Shown: piece by piece, positions 3,086 through 12,281 of the stretch | Numbering within the stretch: position 1 is the stretch's first letter | Layout: each line of letters begins with the position of its first letter | NCBI GenBank assembly: GCA_007693765.1 | Contig: RECZ01000090.1 | Coordinates: 1 to 39,826 of the forward strand | DNA from: Phycisphaerales bacterium | GTDB lineage: Bacteria; Planctomycetota; Phycisphaerae; Phycisphaerales; UBA1924 | DNA: 39,826 nucleotides | Reading direction: 5' to 3' | Made by a program: the position numbers and the translations under genes | Notes under the pieces: generated by a model | The model's database searches: none | What the model was told of the DNA's origin: nothing | The model's input: the letters and a program-made list of their open reading frames with translations, nothing else

Positions 3086-3116
3086 ACAGAGCCTCATCAG
3101 CGCACCGACCCCGCAT

Positions 3117-3153
3117 AAAAAGCCCCCGATGCGCAACGCATCGGGGGCTTTTT
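3117..3153. terminator. Bidirectional rho-independent terminator
   Basis: A 17-bp perfect inverted repeat (3117-3133 and 3137-3153) with a 3-nt loop, flanked by A5 on the left and T5 on the right. It therefore reads as hairpin plus U-run on both strands. It separates the converging rplI (+) and the CvpA-like gene (-). Confidence 0.93.
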
Positions 3154-3207: not shown

Positions 3208-4968
3208 TCAGCGCGGCTGACGACGGGGCGGCGGGATGGTCATCCCGATGCCGTCCTCGATCACCTGCTGCCCGAGCGTGAACTGCTCGATCGTGACCTG
3301 AGCGCTCACGCGGAAGATCAGGGTGAGCCGCTCGTTGGGTCGGCTGTTGCTGAGTTGCGGCAGGTTCTCCATCGCGCGGATAGGTGAGCCGGGGGTGAAG
3401 CGAATGGCGGTGTCGTTGTTGGTGCGGTGGATGAAGCCGATGGCCTCGTAGCGCTGCCCGAGGTTGTCGACGAGCAGCGGAGGGAGCAAGCGCTCGGCCG
3501 CATCGACCGCGCGCCCGAAGAGCGTGACGCGACTCGGGATGCTCACGTCGACCTGCACGATGTAGGTGTCGGGGCCGTCCGCGAACGCTTCCACCATGAG
3601 GTCGCGGGCGATGCCGATCTCGTTGAACGCGGAGTTCGGGATGCGGTGCTCGCCGTCGATGATCTCGTTCTGCTCGTTGAATCGGATGCTGCCGCGGAGC
3701 ACGGAGCGGTTCACGGGGCCGGGGAGGCGGTTGATCCGCCGGATCGGCTCTCGCTGCGGCGTTGCGGCCGCGGCGCGATCCGGCGGGCCGCCTTCGCGCG
3801 CGGTGAGCGTGACGCCGAGCGACTCGAAGAGCGAGCGGTCGCGGATGGCCGAATCGCGCTCGGCGCTCGATGTGAAGACGAACTCTGGCTCGCCCGCGAC
3901 GGGGACGCGCACGTTGCGCACGATCAGGTGCGTGGGCCGGACGCCGGGCGGGACCACGAACTCAAAGCCCATGGTGGTGGTCGAGCCGCCGCCGACGGAC
4001 GAGATGAAAACCTCGCTCGCGTCGAAGCGCCAGCGGTAGATGTCCAGAGCCCACGCCTCGCCCTGCGAGATCGCCGCGATGGGGTGCATGGCCACGGCCT
4101 CGCCGTCGTCGCGCACGCCGACGAGACGGAAATGACCGGGCGACGCGACGAACTGCCCGTTTGTCTCCCGCGCTCCGGACTCGAACCGGATGACGAACCC
4201 CTCGATCCGCGATCCCGCGGGAACGGACTCGCCCTGCATGGTGCGCGCGATCTGGGGCACGGGGCTGCCGTCGGGGGCGCGGGGGGCGAATGTGTCGGCG
4301 AGGAGGTCGCGCACGTCGTTCGACTCGACCTGGAACCGCCCGAGCACGCTGAAATCATCCGGTGCGATGGTCGTGCGCCCGCGGTCGCCGACGGTGAACC
4401 GCACCAGCGTCGCCTGCTCGTGCAGCGAGGGGGCTAGCTTGGCGAGCGGGCGCGACGTGGCGAGCGCGCCGCTGCTGAGCGTCTCGTAGAAGCCGATGGT
4501 GAGCCGGTCGGCGGGCAGCAGGAGCGACGAACCACGCACGATGTTGCCGTTGGCGTCGTACTCCACGGGCTTGTAGCCCATGAAATCGGAGGGGATGCGG
4601 AAAAACCCGATGCTCACGAGCACGATCCCCGCCGTCAGCACGCCGGAGAGCGCACCGAACGCGAGGCCACCGACGAAGTTGGTGGTGTCGTCCATGTCGA
4701 GGTTGGCCGGGATGAGCTTGTCCATCGCCAGCCGCAGCACGACCAGCGAGACGAGGAAGGGGACGATCAGGCCGATGCCCCACGCGTAGTCACGCAGCGC
4801 GCCGACGCCCATCAGCACGCCGTAGACCAGCGGCTCCCACACCGCGAAGGCGATCGCCCCCGCCGCCACAACGCAGGCGAAGTGCAGGAACGCAGAAAAC
4901 AAGCCCTGCGCCGACCACAGATAGGCGATGAGCGCCACGGCGACGATGACGAAGATGCTCAGCAACAT
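3208..4968 (-). CDS. CvpA-like membrane protein with large extra C-terminal region
   Basis: 586 aa. The first 130 residues hold about four hydrophobic segments (near 1-20, 25-50, 62-83 and 98-125) arranged as in the CvpA/colicin V production family, whose members are small inner-membrane proteins of poorly defined envelope function. The remaining 450 residues have no membrane segment, look beta-rich, and match nothing I recognise; their orientation is unknown. The ATG at 4968 has GAGAGG about 10 nt upstream. It is the last gene of the minus-strand block that includes the PilT-type and degenerate GspE-type ATPases, 105 nt after the latter. CvpA membership is judged from topology and position only, so it is moderately secure. 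Confidence 0.6.
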   Translation of the reverse strand: MLLSIFVIVAVALIAYLWSAQGLFSAFLHFACVVAAGAIAFAVWEPLVYGVLMGVGALRDYAWGIGLIVPFLVSLVVLRLAMDKLIPANLDMDDTTNFVGGLAFGALSGVLTAGIVLVSIGFFRIPSDFMGYKPVEYDANGNIVRGSSLLLPADRLTIGFYETLSSGALATSRPLAKLAPSLHEQATLVRFTVGDRGRTTIAPDDFSVLGRFQVESNDVRDLLADTFAPRAPDGSPVPQIARTMQGESVPAGSRIEGFVIRFESGARETNGQFVASPGHFRLVGVRDDGEAVAMHPIAAISQGEAWALDIYRWRFDASEVFISSVGGGSTTTMGFEFVVPPGVRPTHLIVRNVRVPVAGEPEFVFTSSAERDSAIRDRSLFESLGVTLTAREGGPPDRAAAATPQREPIRRINRLPGPVNRSVLRGSIRFNEQNEIIDGEHRIPNSAFNEIGIARDLMVEAFADGPDTYIVQVDVSIPSRVTLFGRAVDAAERLLPPLLVDNLGQRYEAIGFIHRTNNDTAIRFTPGSPIRAMENLPQLSNSRPNERLTLIFRVSAQVTIEQFTLGQQVIEDGIGMTIPPPRRQPR

Positions 4969-5073
4969 GATTCGGTGACCTCTCGCATGGACTCGTCAAA
5001 CGGGGACGGGGGCACTGGATAAGACGCGTTCGGCGCCCCCGCGGTTCTGGCCCCTTCGCTCGGGGCGGGTCGA

Positions 5074-6765
5074 TTACTCGGCGCCGCTGGCGGCCGGCGC
5101 CTTGGGCTTGGGTTTGGCCCCGCCCGGCGACGTGGAGATGCGCACGACTTCCTCGACGCTGGTGATCCCCTCCATCGCCTTGCGCAGCGCGCTCTCCTGG
5201 ATGGAGGGTTCGCGCCGCTTGCGGAATGCGTCTCGGAGGGCGCCGAAGTTGCCCTTGGCGATGTGGGGTCGCGTCTCGGCGTCGATGGCGTGCACCTCGA
5301 AGCACCCGTCCTGCCCGAAGTACCCGCCGCCGTTGCAGACGGGGCAGATCTCGGGCTTATTCTTGATGAGCACCTGCCCGCCCTTGCGATGGAGCTGCTG
5401 CACCTTGTCGGGCATCCCGAGCTTCTTGAGCATCTCGGGCGTCGGCTGGTACGCGGCCTTGCAGTTGGGGCAGAGCCGCCGCAGCAACCGAAACGCCACA
5501 ACGCCGTGCAGGCTCTTGGCCGCGATGTTGGCGTCGCCGACCGCCTTGGCGTAGATCTGCACCGCCTGCAGCGCCGTTTCGGCGCGGATGTTCAGGTAGG
5601 TGCGGGTGCGGTCGTGATCAGCGCGGGCGATCTCCTGGGCGGTCTCGGGATCGGGGGTCTCGGAGACAGCGAGCACATCCGGGTCGCGGCGAAGGAGGGA
5701 ACGAACGGTGGTGCTGAACTCGGCGCCGTCGACCTTGGGGTCGAAGACGTTGTGGCGCACGCCGTCGATGTACGACTCGGGCTCGATCTCGAGCGTCTGC
5801 ACGTTCGACGTGTAGGCGTCATGCGTGCGCAGGATGGCGTACATCGTGCTGGTTCGGCCCGATCCGGGGGGCGCGGCGAGCAGCACGACGCCCTTCTGCT
5901 CGTCGATGATGCGACGCAGTTCTTTCTCCTGCCCCTCGAGCAGCCCGATCTCATCGAGCGTGCGCAGCACCTGCTTGTCGGGATCGATGGTGCCGGTGAT
6001 CCGCAGCCCGCCGGGGACGCCCTGCGAGACGAGGCGCACGCCGTGGCGAACGCCGGTGCGCGCGATGGTGAACTCCTTGGACTGCCGCTTGCGGCGCTCG
6101 CCGACCTCCATCCCGCTCAGGGCGCGCAGATAGTCGATGGCGGCGACCGCCTGCTGCGAGGGGATCGTATCGCCGGTCTGTCGCACACCATCGACGACGA
6201 GGCTGACGGCGTACGACGACTCGGAGGCGGGGGCGACGTCGAAGCGCACGGCGCGGGACTCGAGGGCGGCGGTGAGGAAGCCCTCGGCGATGAGGCGCAC
6301 CTCGTACTCGGGCGTGCCCTCTTCCGGCGGCGGCATGACGCCCTTGGGCCCGCTGAGTTCGACCTCGCTCTTGGAGAGCTTGCGCCGCTTGGAGCGCTCC
6401 TCCGCGCCGGCCGACACCTGTTTGGCGAAGTTGAGCGACCAGCGGGCCTCGGCGGGCACGCGATGGTCTTTATTCCGCATCACGTAGTAGACGCCGAGGT
6501 CGGCGAGCAGGACGAGCGCCATGAGCGGCAGCGCGATCCAGAAGATCGGCGTGAACAGGCCCACGCACAACGCGAGCGTGGCGACGCCGACGTGTACCAG
6601 GTTCCACTGGCGACGCTTGAAGTAGAAGCGTGCGGCGTCTTTGTCGTAGATCGTCGAGACGATCCACGCCCACACGCCCAGCAGCGCGAGAAGAATGACG
6701 GCCTTCCAACCGGAGACGAGCCATGCCGGCTCGGCGGCGCCGAGCGTGAGGAGGGTGAGATTCAT
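5074..6765 (-). CDS. Membrane-anchored GspE/PilB-like ATPase with degenerate catalytic motifs
   Basis: 563 aa. Two or three hydrophobic segments (about 20-40 and 57-95) precede a GspE/PilB/PulE-type domain, whereas normal family members are soluble. The ATPase core is recognisable but altered. Walker A is PPGSGRTST near residues 299-307, with Arg for the invariant Lys at 304. The Asp box reads E-I-E-P-E-S-Y. Walker B is DPDVLAVSETPD near 361-372, keeping E369 but losing the G-E-I-R-D pattern. The second His-box histidine is gone (LNIRAETA). The C-terminal tetracysteine zinc site is intact (C432-P-N-C435 and C474-P-V-C477). ATP hydrolysis is therefore doubtful; a structural or regulatory role beside the neighbouring PilT-type motor is more likely. 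pilT ends 73 nt upstream, suggesting an operon. Confidence 0.82.
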   Translation of the reverse strand: MNLTLLTLGAAEPAWLVSGWKAVILLALLGVWAWIVSTIYDKDAARFYFKRRQWNLVHVGVATLALCVGLFTPIFWIALPLMALVLLADLGVYYVMRNKDHRVPAEARWSLNFAKQVSAGAEERSKRRKLSKSEVELSGPKGVMPPPEEGTPEYEVRLIAEGFLTAALESRAVRFDVAPASESSYAVSLVVDGVRQTGDTIPSQQAVAAIDYLRALSGMEVGERRKRQSKEFTIARTGVRHGVRLVSQGVPGGLRITGTIDPDKQVLRTLDEIGLLEGQEKELRRIIDEQKGVVLLAAPPGSGRTSTMYAILRTHDAYTSNVQTLEIEPESYIDGVRHNVFDPKVDGAEFSTTVRSLLRRDPDVLAVSETPDPETAQEIARADHDRTRTYLNIRAETALQAVQIYAKAVGDANIAAKSLHGVVAFRLLRRLCPNCKAAYQPTPEMLKKLGMPDKVQQLHRKGGQVLIKNKPEICPVCNGGGYFGQDGCFEVHAIDAETRPHIAKGNFGALRDAFRKRREPSIQESALRKAMEGITSVEEVVRISTSPGGAKPKPKAPAASGAE

Positions 6766-6838
6766 GGAAGCGTTGGGTCTCCGCGGTTGCGCGGCGGGGA
6801 GGGCCCGGCGCGCTCAGGACGTCTGGAGAAAACGAGGC

Positions 6839-7993
6839 TCAGCCGATGCCCTTGAGGCGCATCGTGAGCTCGTCGGCGTTGGGGGTCGCGTCCATCGCGA
6901 CGCGGGTGTGAATGTATTCCCGCTCCACGAGGTCCACAAGCGAACCGTTGAAGTCGATCATGCCCATGCGGAGCGACTCGGTCGTCTTCATCACCTCGTG
7001 CAGTTCGCCTTCGCGCCCGTCGAGGATGTACTTGCGCACCACCGCGTTGTTGATGAGGATCTCGAGGGCCGGGATGCGGGGGATGTCCTTGTGGAGCGTC
7101 GGCAGGAGCTTCTGATAGACGATCGCGCGCATCTGGTACGCGAGGATCTTCCGCACCTGATCGCGCTCGTTGGGCTCGAACAGGTCGTAGATACGGCTGA
7201 ACGTCTCGGGGGCGCTGGAGGCGTGGATCGTTCCGAACACCAAGTGGCCCGTCTCGGCGGCGTGCAGCGCGGCCTCGAACGTCTCGGAGTCGCGCATCTC
7301 GCCCACCAGCACGATGTCGGGGTTCTCACGCACCAGAGCGCGGAGGGCGATCTTGAAGTCCGAGACGTCGATGCCCACCTCGCGCTGGTGGATCACCGCC
7401 TTCTGGTCGGAGAAGATGTACTCGATCGGGTCTTCGATGGTGATGATGTGCACGGGCTTGCGTGCGTTCACGTAGTTCAGCATCGAGGCGATCGTCGTCG
7501 ACTTGCCCGAGCCCGTCACGCCCGAGAGCAGCACGATGCCCTGCGGCTGCATCGCGATCTCGGACATCGCCTCGGGCAGGTGCAGGTCCTCGAACTTCTT
7601 GATGTCGCTGGTGATCAGACGGGCGGCGATCGAGAGCTTGCCGCGCGACTGGAAGAGGTTCACGCGGAAGCGGTTGTTCTCGTCGTAGTCGTACGCGAAG
7701 TCGACGGAGCCGAGGCGGCGCAGGTCTTCGAACTGCTCCTCGGTCAGGATGTGCTTCGCGATCGAGATGAACTCCTCGTGCGTGACGGCGTCCGTCTCGA
7801 GCGGCTTGAGCGAGCCCCGCAGCCGGATCACCGGGGAGCGACCCGTCTTGATGATGATGTCCGACCCGCCGAACTTGATGCACGCCTGCAGGAACTTGCC
7901 CAGCCGGGTGGCGTGGGGATCGTGCTTGGCGTCGGGGTCGAGCGCCGTGCGCGCCGTGGGGACGGTTGTCTGCTCGCTCTGGGTTGGGGTCAT
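6839..7993 (-). CDS. pilT: PilT/PilU-family twitching/retraction ATPase
   Basis: 384 aa. All ATPase motifs are canonical: Walker A GVTGSGKSTT at about 158-167, Asp box TIEDPIEY near 185-192, Walker B DIVLVGEMRD near 226-235 and His box TGHLVFGTIHAS near 248-259. PilT-family hexamers power pilus retraction at the inner membrane. The C-terminal A-I-R-N-L-I-R-E motif of PilT is replaced here by a variant around residues 317-327, so PilU or another paralogue is equally possible. The first 28 residues are an unusual polar extension. It lies between a stand-alone MshEN-domain gene and the degenerate GspE-like gene. No pilin or platform-protein gene is present in the window. Confidence 0.9.
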   Translation of the reverse strand: MTPTQSEQTTVPTARTALDPDAKHDPHATRLGKFLQACIKFGGSDIIIKTGRSPVIRLRGSLKPLETDAVTHEEFISIAKHILTEEQFEDLRRLGSVDFAYDYDENNRFRVNLFQSRGKLSIAARLITSDIKKFEDLHLPEAMSEIAMQPQGIVLLSGVTGSGKSTTIASMLNYVNARKPVHIITIEDPIEYIFSDQKAVIHQREVGIDVSDFKIALRALVRENPDIVLVGEMRDSETFEAALHAAETGHLVFGTIHASSAPETFSRIYDLFEPNERDQVRKILAYQMRAIVYQKLLPTLHKDIPRIPALEILINNAVVRKYILDGREGELHEVMKTTESLRMGMIDFNGSLVDLVEREYIHTRVAMDATPNADELTMRLKGIG

Positions 7994-8237
7994 CCTGCTC
8001 TCTGCCTGTCGTCCGATGGGTGAGAAGACCGGTGCGGCCCGATCGCGGCGCCCGCCGCGGGCGCCTCCGCACGGCCGAACCCCTTTCGGGGCCCGCTCCG
8101 GAGCGGTTGCGTCTCGTCATCGTACGCGAGGCACGCCCCCGGCGCACACCCACGACCCCTACCCCCTCCCCCACGGGCCCGCCCCCCGCCGGGGGGGCCT
8201 GTCCATCGCCGGCGCTTCCCGACGCCCTCCACGCGGC

Positions 8238-8726
8238 TCACGCGCCGGACATCACCGCCGCGACGCCGCCGTCCACGCACGCCGGGGTGAGCCCCGCGAG
8301 CGGGTACCGACGGACCAGAGCCTCGCCCAGGGCCTGCGCATCGGCCGTCACGAAGTGGCTGGGCGTGCGCAGCTTGCGGTACACGAAGTTGATCGCCCGC
8401 GGCAGGTGCGTAGGCGTGGTGCAGACGACGAGCTCCTGCCGGTCGAAGCGGAGCGGCAGCACGCGGAACTGCCACGCCTGCCGGGCGCTGAGCAGCGTGA
8501 GCGCATCGGGGTCGACACGCTCGGTCCGCGGGTCGACACGCTCGGCGATCGAGGCGTACTGCTCGACCCACGCGCCCTCAACGGCCTTGGGGCAGACTCC
8601 GAACATGCGCTCGGCCAAAGCGCCGAAGGGCACGCCGCGGAGCGCCTGCTCCTCCAGCACCAGCCGCACCTGCTCTTCGGTCAGCAGGCCGCGAGCCACC
8701 ATCAGTTCACCGAGTCGGAGGGTCAT
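8238..8726 (-). CDS. Stand-alone GspE N-terminal / MshEN-like domain protein
   Basis: 162 aa. The opening R-L-G-E-L-M-V-A-R-G-L-L-T-E-E-Q and the later pattern L-P-L-R-F-D-R-Q-E-L-V-V-C-T-T-P follow the N-terminal domain of type II secretion/type IV pilus assembly ATPases. Some of these (MshEN domains) bind c-di-GMP. Here the protein ends after this domain, with no ATPase part. GGAG lies 8 nt before the ATG. It is 244 nt upstream of pilT in the same direction, so it may be a detached regulatory domain for one of the two downstream ATPases. Whether c-di-GMP-contacting residues are kept cannot be judged by eye. Confidence 0.7.
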   Translation of the reverse strand: MTLRLGELMVARGLLTEEQVRLVLEEQALRGVPFGALAERMFGVCPKAVEGAWVEQYASIAERVDPRTERVDPDALTLLSARQAWQFRVLPLRFDRQELVVCTTPTHLPRAINFVYRKLRTPSHFVTADAQALGEALVRRYPLAGLTPACVDGGVAAVMSGA

Positions 8727-9433: not shown

Positions 9434-9527
9434 GATTCGGCTCGCCCTCCTGGCTGCGGTGAGGTGATCGTTCCAACACTGTATGCGGGCAAGGGGTCCG
9501 AACCAAGCAGGCGCGGCTTCTCGGACC

Positions 9528-9572
9528 TTCTCCAATCCGGGCCTTGCTCTACACTCGGCGACCGCTCAGGAA
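9528..9572 (+). promoter_or_regulatory. Putative promoter and ribosome binding site of the kinase gene
   Basis: TACACT at 9550-9555 is a plausible -10 box, with a weak TTCTCC 16 nt upstream at 9528-9533. AGGAA at 9568-9572 sits 6 nt before the GTG at 9579 and decides the start choice. Predicted from sequence pattern only. Confidence 0.35.
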
Positions 9573-9578
9573 GCCGCT

Positions 9579-12281
9579 GTGACCGATCACGACGAGACCA
9601 GACCGACACCCCCGGAACCACGGTTCGACCCCGTCGCCGGCGCCTCGCCCGGCGAGAGCGACCGGCCGCGCTCGGGCTCCGACCCGGACGCCACCACATC
9701 CCCCACCGGCTCCGGGCGGCGGCGCGCCCGGTTCCAGCCGGGGGCGGTCATCGGCGAGCGGTACCGGATCGCGACGTTTCTTGGGCGCGGCGGGATGGGC
9801 GAGGTGTACCTCGCCGACGACATGCGCCTCGACCAGCAGGTGGCGTTGAAGTTCCTGCCCGAGCAGGCGTCGCAGGACGCCTCGTGGCGCGAGCGTCTGC
9901 AGAACGAGGTGCGCCTGGCGCGGCAGGTCTCGCACAAGCACGTCTGCCGCGTGTACGACATCGGAGAGACGAGCACGCCCGACGGCGCCCTCCTGTACCT
10001 GAGCATGGAGTACGTGGACGGCGAAGACCTCGCATCGCTGCTGCGCCGGATCGGACGCCTGCCGCGCGACAAGGCGGTGGCCATCGCCCGCCAGTTGTGC
10101 GCCGGGCTGCACGCGGCCCACGCGGAGGGCGTGCTGCACCGCGACCTCAAGCCCGCCAACATCATGCTCGACGGGCGCGGCGACGCCCGCATCACGGACT
10201 TCGGCGTCGCGGGCGTCGCAGAACAACTCACCGCCGAGGACGCCCGCGCCGGCACGCCGGCGTACATGGCGCCCGAGCAACTCCGCGGCGAGTCCGTCTC
10301 GATCCAGAGCGACATCTACGCGCTAGGGCTGGTCCTGTACGAACTGTTCACCGGCTCGCGGGCGCACAGCGGCGAAACCGTCGACGCGCTGCGGCACGAG
10401 CGAGAATCCTCCGCGCCCAGCGCGCCGTCCACGGTCATCCACGACATGGACCCGGTGGTCGAACGCGTGATCCTGCGCTGCCTGTCCCCGGAGCCGCACG
10501 ATCGCCCGGCCTCGGCGATGAGCGTCGCGGCGGCGCTGCCGGGCGGAGACCCGCTCGCCGCGGCGCTGGCGGCGGGCGAGACGCCCTCGCCCGAACTGGT
10601 CGCGGCGTCGGGCGGTGAGGGCGCGATGCGCCCGCGGACGGCGCTGCTCTGCGCAGCGCTGACGCTGGTGATGGCTGCGGCGTTCGTGTGGTCCAACCAG
10701 CCGCTGAAGCGATGGGGTTTGCTCGAGGGCATGGTTGCACCGGCGGTGGCGGAGGACCGCGCGCGCGAGGCGCTGCGGGTCGCGGGGCACGATCCGAGGG
10801 CGGCGCACGAGCGGTTGGGCGTCGAGACCGATCACCCGTTGCTGACGCATATCCTCCAATTCGAATCGGACCGCGCCGCGCGCATCGCGCTCCAGCGCAG
10901 CGCGCGCCCCAGCACGGTCGCCTACATCTGGCGCGGCTCTCCCATGCCGATCGTGACGTCGCACGAGGACATCCACCCGGCGGGGATGTCCTCGTGGGAT
11001 CCGCCCTTCTGGATGCCCAACGAGCGCATGGTGCACCTGCACGCCGACGGCTCGTTGCGGACGCTGCGCGTGCTGACGCCGTGGATGATGACGCCCGGCG
11101 CGGCGGACGTGCGCCCCGACTGGCCCGCGCTCTTCGCGCTCGCGGGGCTGGACTTCGACGGCTTCGAGCCCGACGAGCCCACGCTCTTCCCGCCGCTGAA
11201 CGCCGAGTCTCGGCTCGCGTGGAAGCGAACGGGCGCGGACGCGGACGATCCGTTCATCCCGGTGCGGGTGGAGGCGGCGGAGCGGGCCGGTCGCGTGGTG
11301 TTCTTCCGCGCGCTGTACGGGTGGGACATGACCGGCGCGTCCGGGAATGTCGAGCAGACACGCTCGCTCATGTACTGGATCCAGATCGTCACGCTGATCC
11401 TGATGATCTCGATCGGCGTCGGCTCGATCGTGATGGCGTGGCGGCACGTGCGCATCGGGCGGGGCGACCGGCGCGGGGCGATGACGCTGATGGCGATCGC
11501 GTTCCCGCTCACGCTGCTGGCGACGGCGCTGGCGATGGTCGTGTCGCCGCTGGTGCTGGGGACGCACTTCCCGCGCGTCATCGGGATGTCGCTGTTCAGC
11601 GCGTTCTTCCTCGGCGTGATGTATCTGGCGGTGGAGCCGATCGTGCGTCGATCGTGGCCGCAGGTGCTGACGGCGTGGTCGCGGCTGCTCGCTGGGCGTT
11701 GGCGCGACCCGCTGGTCGGGCGCTCGCTGCTGCTGGGCGCCGTCGCGGGCGCCGCGGCGGGGATGCTGCACCAGAGCGGGAACCTCGCGTCGTTCCTGAC
11801 GACAGGCGTCGCGGCGGACGCGGGGCGGGCGTCGCCGCTGGACTGGCTGAGCATCCGCTGGGGGTTCGTCGGTCTGGCCGCGGTGGCGATCGCGGCGCCG
11901 CTGATGTCGTTCCTGTACGTCGTGCTGCTGGTGGCGCTGCGCGCCGCGCTGCGGAAGCCTTGGCTCTGGGCGCCCGCGTTCCTGCTTCTGGGAACGCTGC
12001 TGCTCGAGCGGGACCTGTTCTACAACGCGACGATTCTGCCCGGCGCGCTCATCATCACCGCGCTGCGGCTCGTGCTGATCATGCGGTGCGGCGTGCTGGC
12101 CGCGGCGGCGTTCGAGGGGGTGCGGATGATCCTGCGCCACACCCCCCTGCTGCCGGACCTGCAATCGTGGCAGGGCGCGACGACGGTGTTCTGGGGCCTC
12201 GTGCTGCTGGCGTTCCTGGCGTACGCGACGCACACGGCGATCGGCGCTCACAGGCCTACCCGCGCCCCGGCGAGCGTTTGA
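9579..12281 (+). CDS. PknB-like Ser/Thr protein kinase fused to a polytopic membrane domain
   Basis: 900 aa from the GTG at 9579, chosen for its AGGAA site; an upstream ATG at 9483 has none and would run through the clpS promoter. A Pro/Asp-rich leader (1-55) precedes a complete Hanks kinase domain (about 61-320): Gly loop GRGGMGEV at 69-76, Lys91, HRDLKPAN at 187-194, DFG at 207-209 and APE at 231-233, so it should be active. A membrane segment at about 353-372 leads to a roughly 220-residue, probably exported domain. About seven further hydrophobic segments follow between residue 600 and 885. I do not recognise the exported or polytopic parts. The design suggests envelope sensing with cytoplasmic phosphorylation. 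The gene appears monocistronic. Confidence 0.88.
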   Translation: MTDHDETRPTPPEPRFDPVAGASPGESDRPRSGSDPDATTSPTGSGRRRARFQPGAVIGERYRIATFLGRGGMGEVYLADDMRLDQQVALKFLPEQASQDASWRERLQNEVRLARQVSHKHVCRVYDIGETSTPDGALLYLSMEYVDGEDLASLLRRIGRLPRDKAVAIARQLCAGLHAAHAEGVLHRDLKPANIMLDGRGDARITDFGVAGVAEQLTAEDARAGTPAYMAPEQLRGESVSIQSDIYALGLVLYELFTGSRAHSGETVDALRHERESSAPSAPSTVIHDMDPVVERVILRCLSPEPHDRPASAMSVAAALPGGDPLAAALAAGETPSPELVAASGGEGAMRPRTALLCAALTLVMAAAFVWSNQPLKRWGLLEGMVAPAVAEDRAREALRVAGHDPRAAHERLGVETDHPLLTHILQFESDRAARIALQRSARPSTVAYIWRGSPMPIVTSHEDIHPAGMSSWDPPFWMPNERMVHLHADGSLRTLRVLTPWMMTPGAADVRPDWPALFALAGLDFDGFEPDEPTLFPPLNAESRLAWKRTGADADDPFIPVRVEAAERAGRVVFFRALYGWDMTGASGNVEQTRSLMYWIQIVTLILMISIGVGSIVMAWRHVRIGRGDRRGAMTLMAIAFPLTLLATALAMVVSPLVLGTHFPRVIGMSLFSAFFLGVMYLAVEPIVRRSWPQVLTAWSRLLAGRWRDPLVGRSLLLGAVAGAAAGMLHQSGNLASFLTTGVAADAGRASPLDWLSIRWGFVGLAAVAIAAPLMSFLYVVLLVALRAALRKPWLWAPAFLLLGTLLLERDLFYNATILPGALIITALRLVLIMRCGVLAAAAFEGVRMILRHTPLLPDLQSWQGATTVFWGLVLLAFLAYATHTAIGAHRPTRAPASV

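Follow-up and report, generated by a model that had tools for sequence, protein, structure and literature searches.

A class-wide block of PilT-type ATPase, membrane-anchored pseudo-GspE and CvpA-like genes in Phycisphaerae

Genes resembling parts of a secretion or pilus ATPase stand side by side at one end of a contig from a Phycisphaerales bacterium, and the locus raises the question of which of them belong together and what they could do in the cell envelope. The window, that is, the whole stretch of 39,826 nucleotides analyzed here, is one contig (RECZ01000090.1) of a 2.9 Mb draft genome. A preliminary description of it had proposed an undescribed module of four same-strand genes, in which the parts of a single ATPase are divided among a lone MshEN domain, an active PilT, an inactive GspE and a CvpA-like protein. 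Four minus-strand open reading frames (ORFs) encoding CvpA-like, GspE-like, PilT and MshEN proteins indeed lie at the coordinates first given for them, as listed below with the elements discussed in the text.

3115-3153, no strand assigned: inverted repeat flanked by A and T runs, read directly from the sequence
3208-4968, minus strand: CvpA-like membrane protein with a large C-terminal extension, 586 aa, third gene of the block
3220-3756, minus strand: second beta-sandwich domain of the CvpA-like protein, residues ~405-583, predicted by the model
3853-4371, minus strand: first beta-sandwich domain of the CvpA-like protein, residues ~200-372, predicted by the model, with weak fold matches
4606-4968, minus strand: CvpA-like membrane domain, residues 1-121, from profile, model and hydropathy
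5074-6765, minus strand: membrane-anchored pseudo-ATPase of the extension type (GspE/PilB-like; PF00437), 563 aa, second gene of the block
5335-5472, minus strand: tetracysteine (zinc) site C432/C435/C474/C477 of the GspE-like protein
5848-5874, minus strand: degenerate Walker A APPGSGRTS of the GspE-like protein with Lys replaced by Arg304, from sequence and alignment
6469-6711, minus strand: three predicted membrane helices of the GspE-like protein, residues 19-99, from model and charge distribution
6839-7993, minus strand: PilT-family ATPase (TIGR01420), 384 aa, first gene of the block
7019-7042, minus strand: position of the AIRNLIRE motif (PMC6762196) in PilT, here VVRKYILD
7496-7522, minus strand: intact Walker A GVTGSGKST of PilT, from the alignment of orthologues
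8238-8726, minus strand: stand-alone MshEN-like protein (PF05157), 162 aa, a neighbor outside the conserved block

No pilin, platform (PF00482) or secretin (PF00263) gene is present among the ORFs adjoining the block, as had been noted before, and the T2SSF platforms and secretins of this genome are on other contigs. The inverted repeat lies 3′ of both the block and rplI and is terminator-like on both strands, and it is absent from the sequence-scan listing. A promoter scan, whose model says little for this bacterial group, found no sigma-70-like promoter in the region. A defense system was considered and rejected, as PADLOC returned weak P-loop matches to PilT only and none for the other three proteins. 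Farther along, an ORF at 9483-12281 (932 aa as listed) seems from its reading to encode a serine/threonine protein kinase with a multi-helix membrane part after it, and is divergently oriented relative to a ClpS gene.

Gene order was compared over 112 loci of the class, counted after duplicate removal and chosen via the GspE-like gene or the coordinates of its neighbors; most neighborhoods were retrieved by the GspE-like gene alone, and five (families f7-f9) via CvpA. The CvpA gene is directly downstream of the GspE-like gene in 111/112 loci, the remaining one being a contig edge. The PilT gene is directly upstream in 86/112, farther upstream in 7, at a contig edge in 5 and not upstream in 14. 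Among 61 relatives from the family and order, 59 have a GspE-like orthologue at 33-54 percent identity, one of these being truncated at the start of a contig and another divided between two contigs. A dedicated PilT, counted with its non-adjacent cases, is found in 57/61 at 442-686 bits, the lowest score coming from a copy truncated by a contig end, against 405 bits for the next-best PilT paralogue. In other families, PilT scores at least 420 bits in 22/22 genomes. The rpsF-ssb-rplI genes stand tail to tail with the block in several relatives and are absent there in others. Thus, the PilT, GspE-like and CvpA-like genes are a conserved block with its order kept across the class, and like ordering of three of the four genes on this scale is far beyond chance. 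Incidentally, records titled Leptolyngbya, Cyanobacteria and Isosphaera (L219, L223 and L235) contain Phycisphaerales-like versions of the block, so those assemblies are probably mislabeled.

The fourth gene does not share this order. Its product matches PF05157 with 31 bits (cut-off 23.1), and the first 24-residue c-di-GMP motif fits, but the second departs from the published pattern with PFG for RLG and a shifted glycine. An orthologue exists in most relatives, near-universally in the order, at sites other than the block; among the block loci read, it came near the block once, ~10 kb away and on the opposite strand. Because the orthologue is unlinked in relatives, membership in the block was rejected, and the MshEN gene is a neighbor and not part of the module. 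What stands of the four-gene proposal is the run of PilT, pseudo-GspE and CvpA, whose order is conserved in relatives, contrary to the refuting condition that the preliminary description had set. The MshEN-like family carries a signature, RRQAWQF (L085-L114), and a ClpS-like gene occurs within its 1.5 kb flanks in 7/30 loci, the window included.

The central protein of the block was described beforehand as an inactive-looking, membrane-bound GspE without its N-domain, which holds. T2SSE (PF00437) matches residues 157-542 with 129 bits, and a profile search found neither MshEN nor the GspE N-domain (N1) in the protein. Its AlphaFold model (mean pLDDT 90.3) combines three membrane helices with an N2-like domain and an ATPase fold, with PilF, the pilus ATPase of Thermus, as the closest solved structure (5oiu, E 1.8e-33). 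From the charge distribution in 30 orthologues, the N-terminus is predicted to be outside and the ATPase domain inside. Several orthologues outside the class have a signal-peptide-like start ahead of the same membrane region.

Besides the lysine of Walker A, the window protein has lost the glycine and arginine of Walker B, and its His box. This is not a pseudogene specific to the window, since catalytic loss is class-wide: the Walker A lysine is kept in 0/120 class sequences, its place being taken mostly by Arg in the family of the window and by other residues outside that family. At Walker B and the His box, too, the residues have mostly changed across the same 120. But the four cysteines of the zinc site are kept in 116/120, which indicates that selection maintains the fold although catalysis is gone. 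Such a tetracysteine site occurs in secretion and pilus-assembly ATPases and not in retraction ATPases (PMC5061722), so its retention marks the dead protein as extension type. Judged from its residues, the GspE-like protein is a conserved pseudo-ATPase.

Its origin is suggested by relatives outside the class. Genomes from families f32, f39, f53 and f82 encode a protein related to the anchored GspE, whose gene is followed by CvpA, preceded by PilT, or both. All three genes occur together in 7/18 outside loci, which is no unbiased rate because these loci were partly picked through CvpA or PilT. In f32 and f39, all catalytic residues checked are kept in 13/13 aligned sequences, and further members of f32, f39 and f53 also have the Walker A lysine. 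With the lysine lost throughout the class and intact in f32 and f39, the conserved pseudo-ATPase derives from a working extension-type motor. This also disposes of the idea that one ancestral ATPase was split into four proteins, since the same anchored protein exists outside the class with an intact ATPase site, and what replaces the N-domain is the membrane anchor rather than a detached MshEN. In a sample of the phylum, only 43/294 genomes reached the threshold, so presence of the module throughout the phylum is unsupported.

The module proteins cluster together in the GspE tree, separately from the canonical ATPases of the genome (bootstrap 80). One outside genome, G224 of family f82 (L315), carries all three genes of the block together, and the Walker A lysine is missing from its anchored GspE as well (GLTTT). 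The GspE tree groups G224 with the class (bootstrap 98, long branches), at odds with the PilT tree, which groups it with f32. With its placement in conflict between the two trees, the lysine may have been lost once or in parallel, either being possible.

The first gene encodes a protein that looks catalytically active, as previously suggested. It scores 394 bits against TIGR01420 (cut-off 319), and the core residues of Walker A (GVTGSGKST), Walker B (VLVGEMRD) and the His box (GHLVFGTIH) are invariant in 20 orthologues. AIRNLIRE, a C-terminal motif of PilT that is absent in PilU (PMC6762196), is missing from all module PilT orthologues compared. With the motifs of the PilT/PilU family intact and AIRNLIRE missing, the protein is best called a PilT/PilU-family motor, not a canonical PilT. 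The pilus-cluster PilT of the same genome (contig C106) has AIANLIRD, and module PilTs form a dedicated clade apart from it. Two further observations concern paralogues. First, the same genome encodes a second degenerate PilT-like protein (L083:3-1001, minus strand, contig C12), whose Walker A reads GAAGSGRST with Lys replaced by Arg and whose Walker B has lost GE. Second, another PilT paralogue group without AIRNLIRE, at ~345-405 bits against the module profile, occurs in many relatives (L320, L321, L331 and L333).

The third protein is CvpA-like with an extension of ~460 residues beyond the membrane part, close to the 450 first proposed. Colicin_V (PF02674) scores 19 bits on the window protein, below the cut-off of 29.3, but is matched by 29/29 members of the orthologue alignment (best 5.5e-7), with relatives reaching 34.7 bits. 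The model (pLDDT 89.6) consists of four membrane helices, at residues 2-21, 23-52, 56-85 and 94-121 in agreement with hydropathy, and two beta-sandwich domains. An extension of this size with two predicted sandwich domains occurs in most of the order. Total length is 413-422 aa in family f4 and mostly ~355-377 aa in families f7-f9, with 582 aa in G116; the ORFs of f32 have 233-270 aa and match over the membrane part only. The extension is probably periplasmic; the charge bias pointing this way is weak. Foldseek gave no match at E 0.001 for the whole model, which is no proof of a new fold, and the best VIA-align Z was 5.4, a weak match. Internal duplication as the source of the sandwich domains is unsupported (hhalign probability 3.7 percent).

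We propose, with a probability of roughly 0.4, that the block encodes a three-part envelope module in which PilT is the sole working motor. PilT would be a cytoplasmic ring ATPase. The pseudo-ATPase, tied to the inner membrane by its three helices, would probably form a fixed, non-hydrolyzing ring and in this way dock, couple or brake PilT at the membrane. In the same membrane, the CvpA-like protein would extend one or two beta-sandwich domains into the periplasm, and may link the motor to the cell-wall side, either by contact or by a signal coming from there. The most likely target of the force would be a pilus-type platform whose gene lies at another place in the genome. This proposal takes the observed gene order, catalytic-residue loss and co-occurrence together with predicted helices, folds and topology, from which we infer a physical complex. 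A dead ring that lets its partner work has a precedent in V. cholerae, where Walker-dead PilT still allows PilU-powered retraction (PMC6762196). Against the proposal stand the 14 class loci without an adjacent PilT and the 7 more with PilT farther upstream. Pilin, platform and secretin genes are never part of the block in the loci examined closely. PilC-type platforms exist in 61/61 relatives, with five platform loci in this genome, but a partner that is universal is uninformative, and co-occurrence is therefore no indicator of the platform as the target. A motor rewired for surface or secretion functions, as the preliminary description had it, is a possible outcome.

The same genes could instead be accessory to ordinary pilus dynamics, which we consider a distinctly less probable reading. 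Module PilT would then be a second retraction motor, the dead ring would compete with PilB or cap the platform and so hold pili retracted, and CvpA would be a mere membrane helper. Such roles fit a dead protein of extension type, by its tetracysteine site, beside a PilT of the retraction family, and platforms are available in every relative; this genome also has a canonical PilT next to two PilB-like genes and a platform on contig C106. However, module PilT departs from that pilus-cluster PilT in lacking AIRNLIRE, a mere helper leaves unexplained why CvpA is the most constant neighbor (111/112), and the anchored ATPase is intact outside the class.

That constancy is what favors a third reading, slightly less probable again, in which the module is centered on CvpA and works without pili, the rings driving or gating a CvpA-based membrane channel or a stress response. 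The block is without a pilus gene, and in enteric bacteria CvpA, a protein that has been compared with small transporters, is required for deoxycholate resistance (PMC6705877). However, CvpA is short or without the extension outside the order. Moreover, no PilT-family motor is known to act without a platform. A specific form of pilus-free machine, in which a pilus-type ring ATPase acts on a CvpA-family protein via a membrane-fixed pseudo-ATPase ring, would imply two originally working motors, one of which lost its catalytic site no later than the base of the class. We regard it as unlikely, but if true, it would be a new output for the PilT motor family.

Finally, slow decay of the GspE-like gene, with survival owed to its place beside housekeeping genes and no shared function, is very improbable: its catalytic residues are lost and variable, and rplI and its neighbors also stay close by in some members of the family, but orthologues are full length in 59/61 genomes, the zinc site is kept, and the block order persists at the many loci where ribosomal neighbors are absent.

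The literature searched, whose coverage leaves out most subscription journals, contained no published description of a PilT/pseudo-GspE/CvpA module. Such a grouping, of a PilT-type motor with a pseudo-ATPase of extension type and a CvpA-like protein, is thus undescribed as far as these searches show, and it is deeply conserved. Here an extension-type motor has lost catalysis in nature, throughout a class, yet the protein has been kept. Because an active version exists in living relatives, the non-catalytic role of such rings is directly testable.

Among known systems, the PilT/PilU pair of type IVa pili is similar in that it joins two ring ATPases from the same superfamily, and one of them can be catalytically dead while the other works (PMC6762196). 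Module PilT passes the PilT/PilU model and, like PilU, is without AIRNLIRE. However, its partner in the module is not a second retraction ATPase: it is of the extension type, has membrane helices and a zinc site, and is dead throughout the class. There is also a third gene, CvpA. GspE and PilB of type II secretion and type IV pili share the N2-like domain, the ATPase fold and the tetracysteine site with the module protein, which in turn has three membrane helices in place of the docking N-domain, no Walker A lysine in the class and no adjacent platform or secretin gene. The stand-alone window gene passes the model of the MshEN c-di-GMP receptor with a good first motif, but differs from it in its atypical second motif and is unlinked to the block. 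With the Colicin V production protein, the module CvpA shares a predicted four-helix membrane domain and the Colicin_V match of its whole alignment, differing in the long extension and in the score of the window copy below the cut-off. MarP-type mycobacterial proteases likewise combine a CvpA-like membrane domain with a large C-terminal domain outside the cytoplasm; the layout is similar, whereas the module protein has two predicted beta-sandwich domains and no protease domain. CvpA, a widespread family of unclear function, gains a strong genetic partner in this block.
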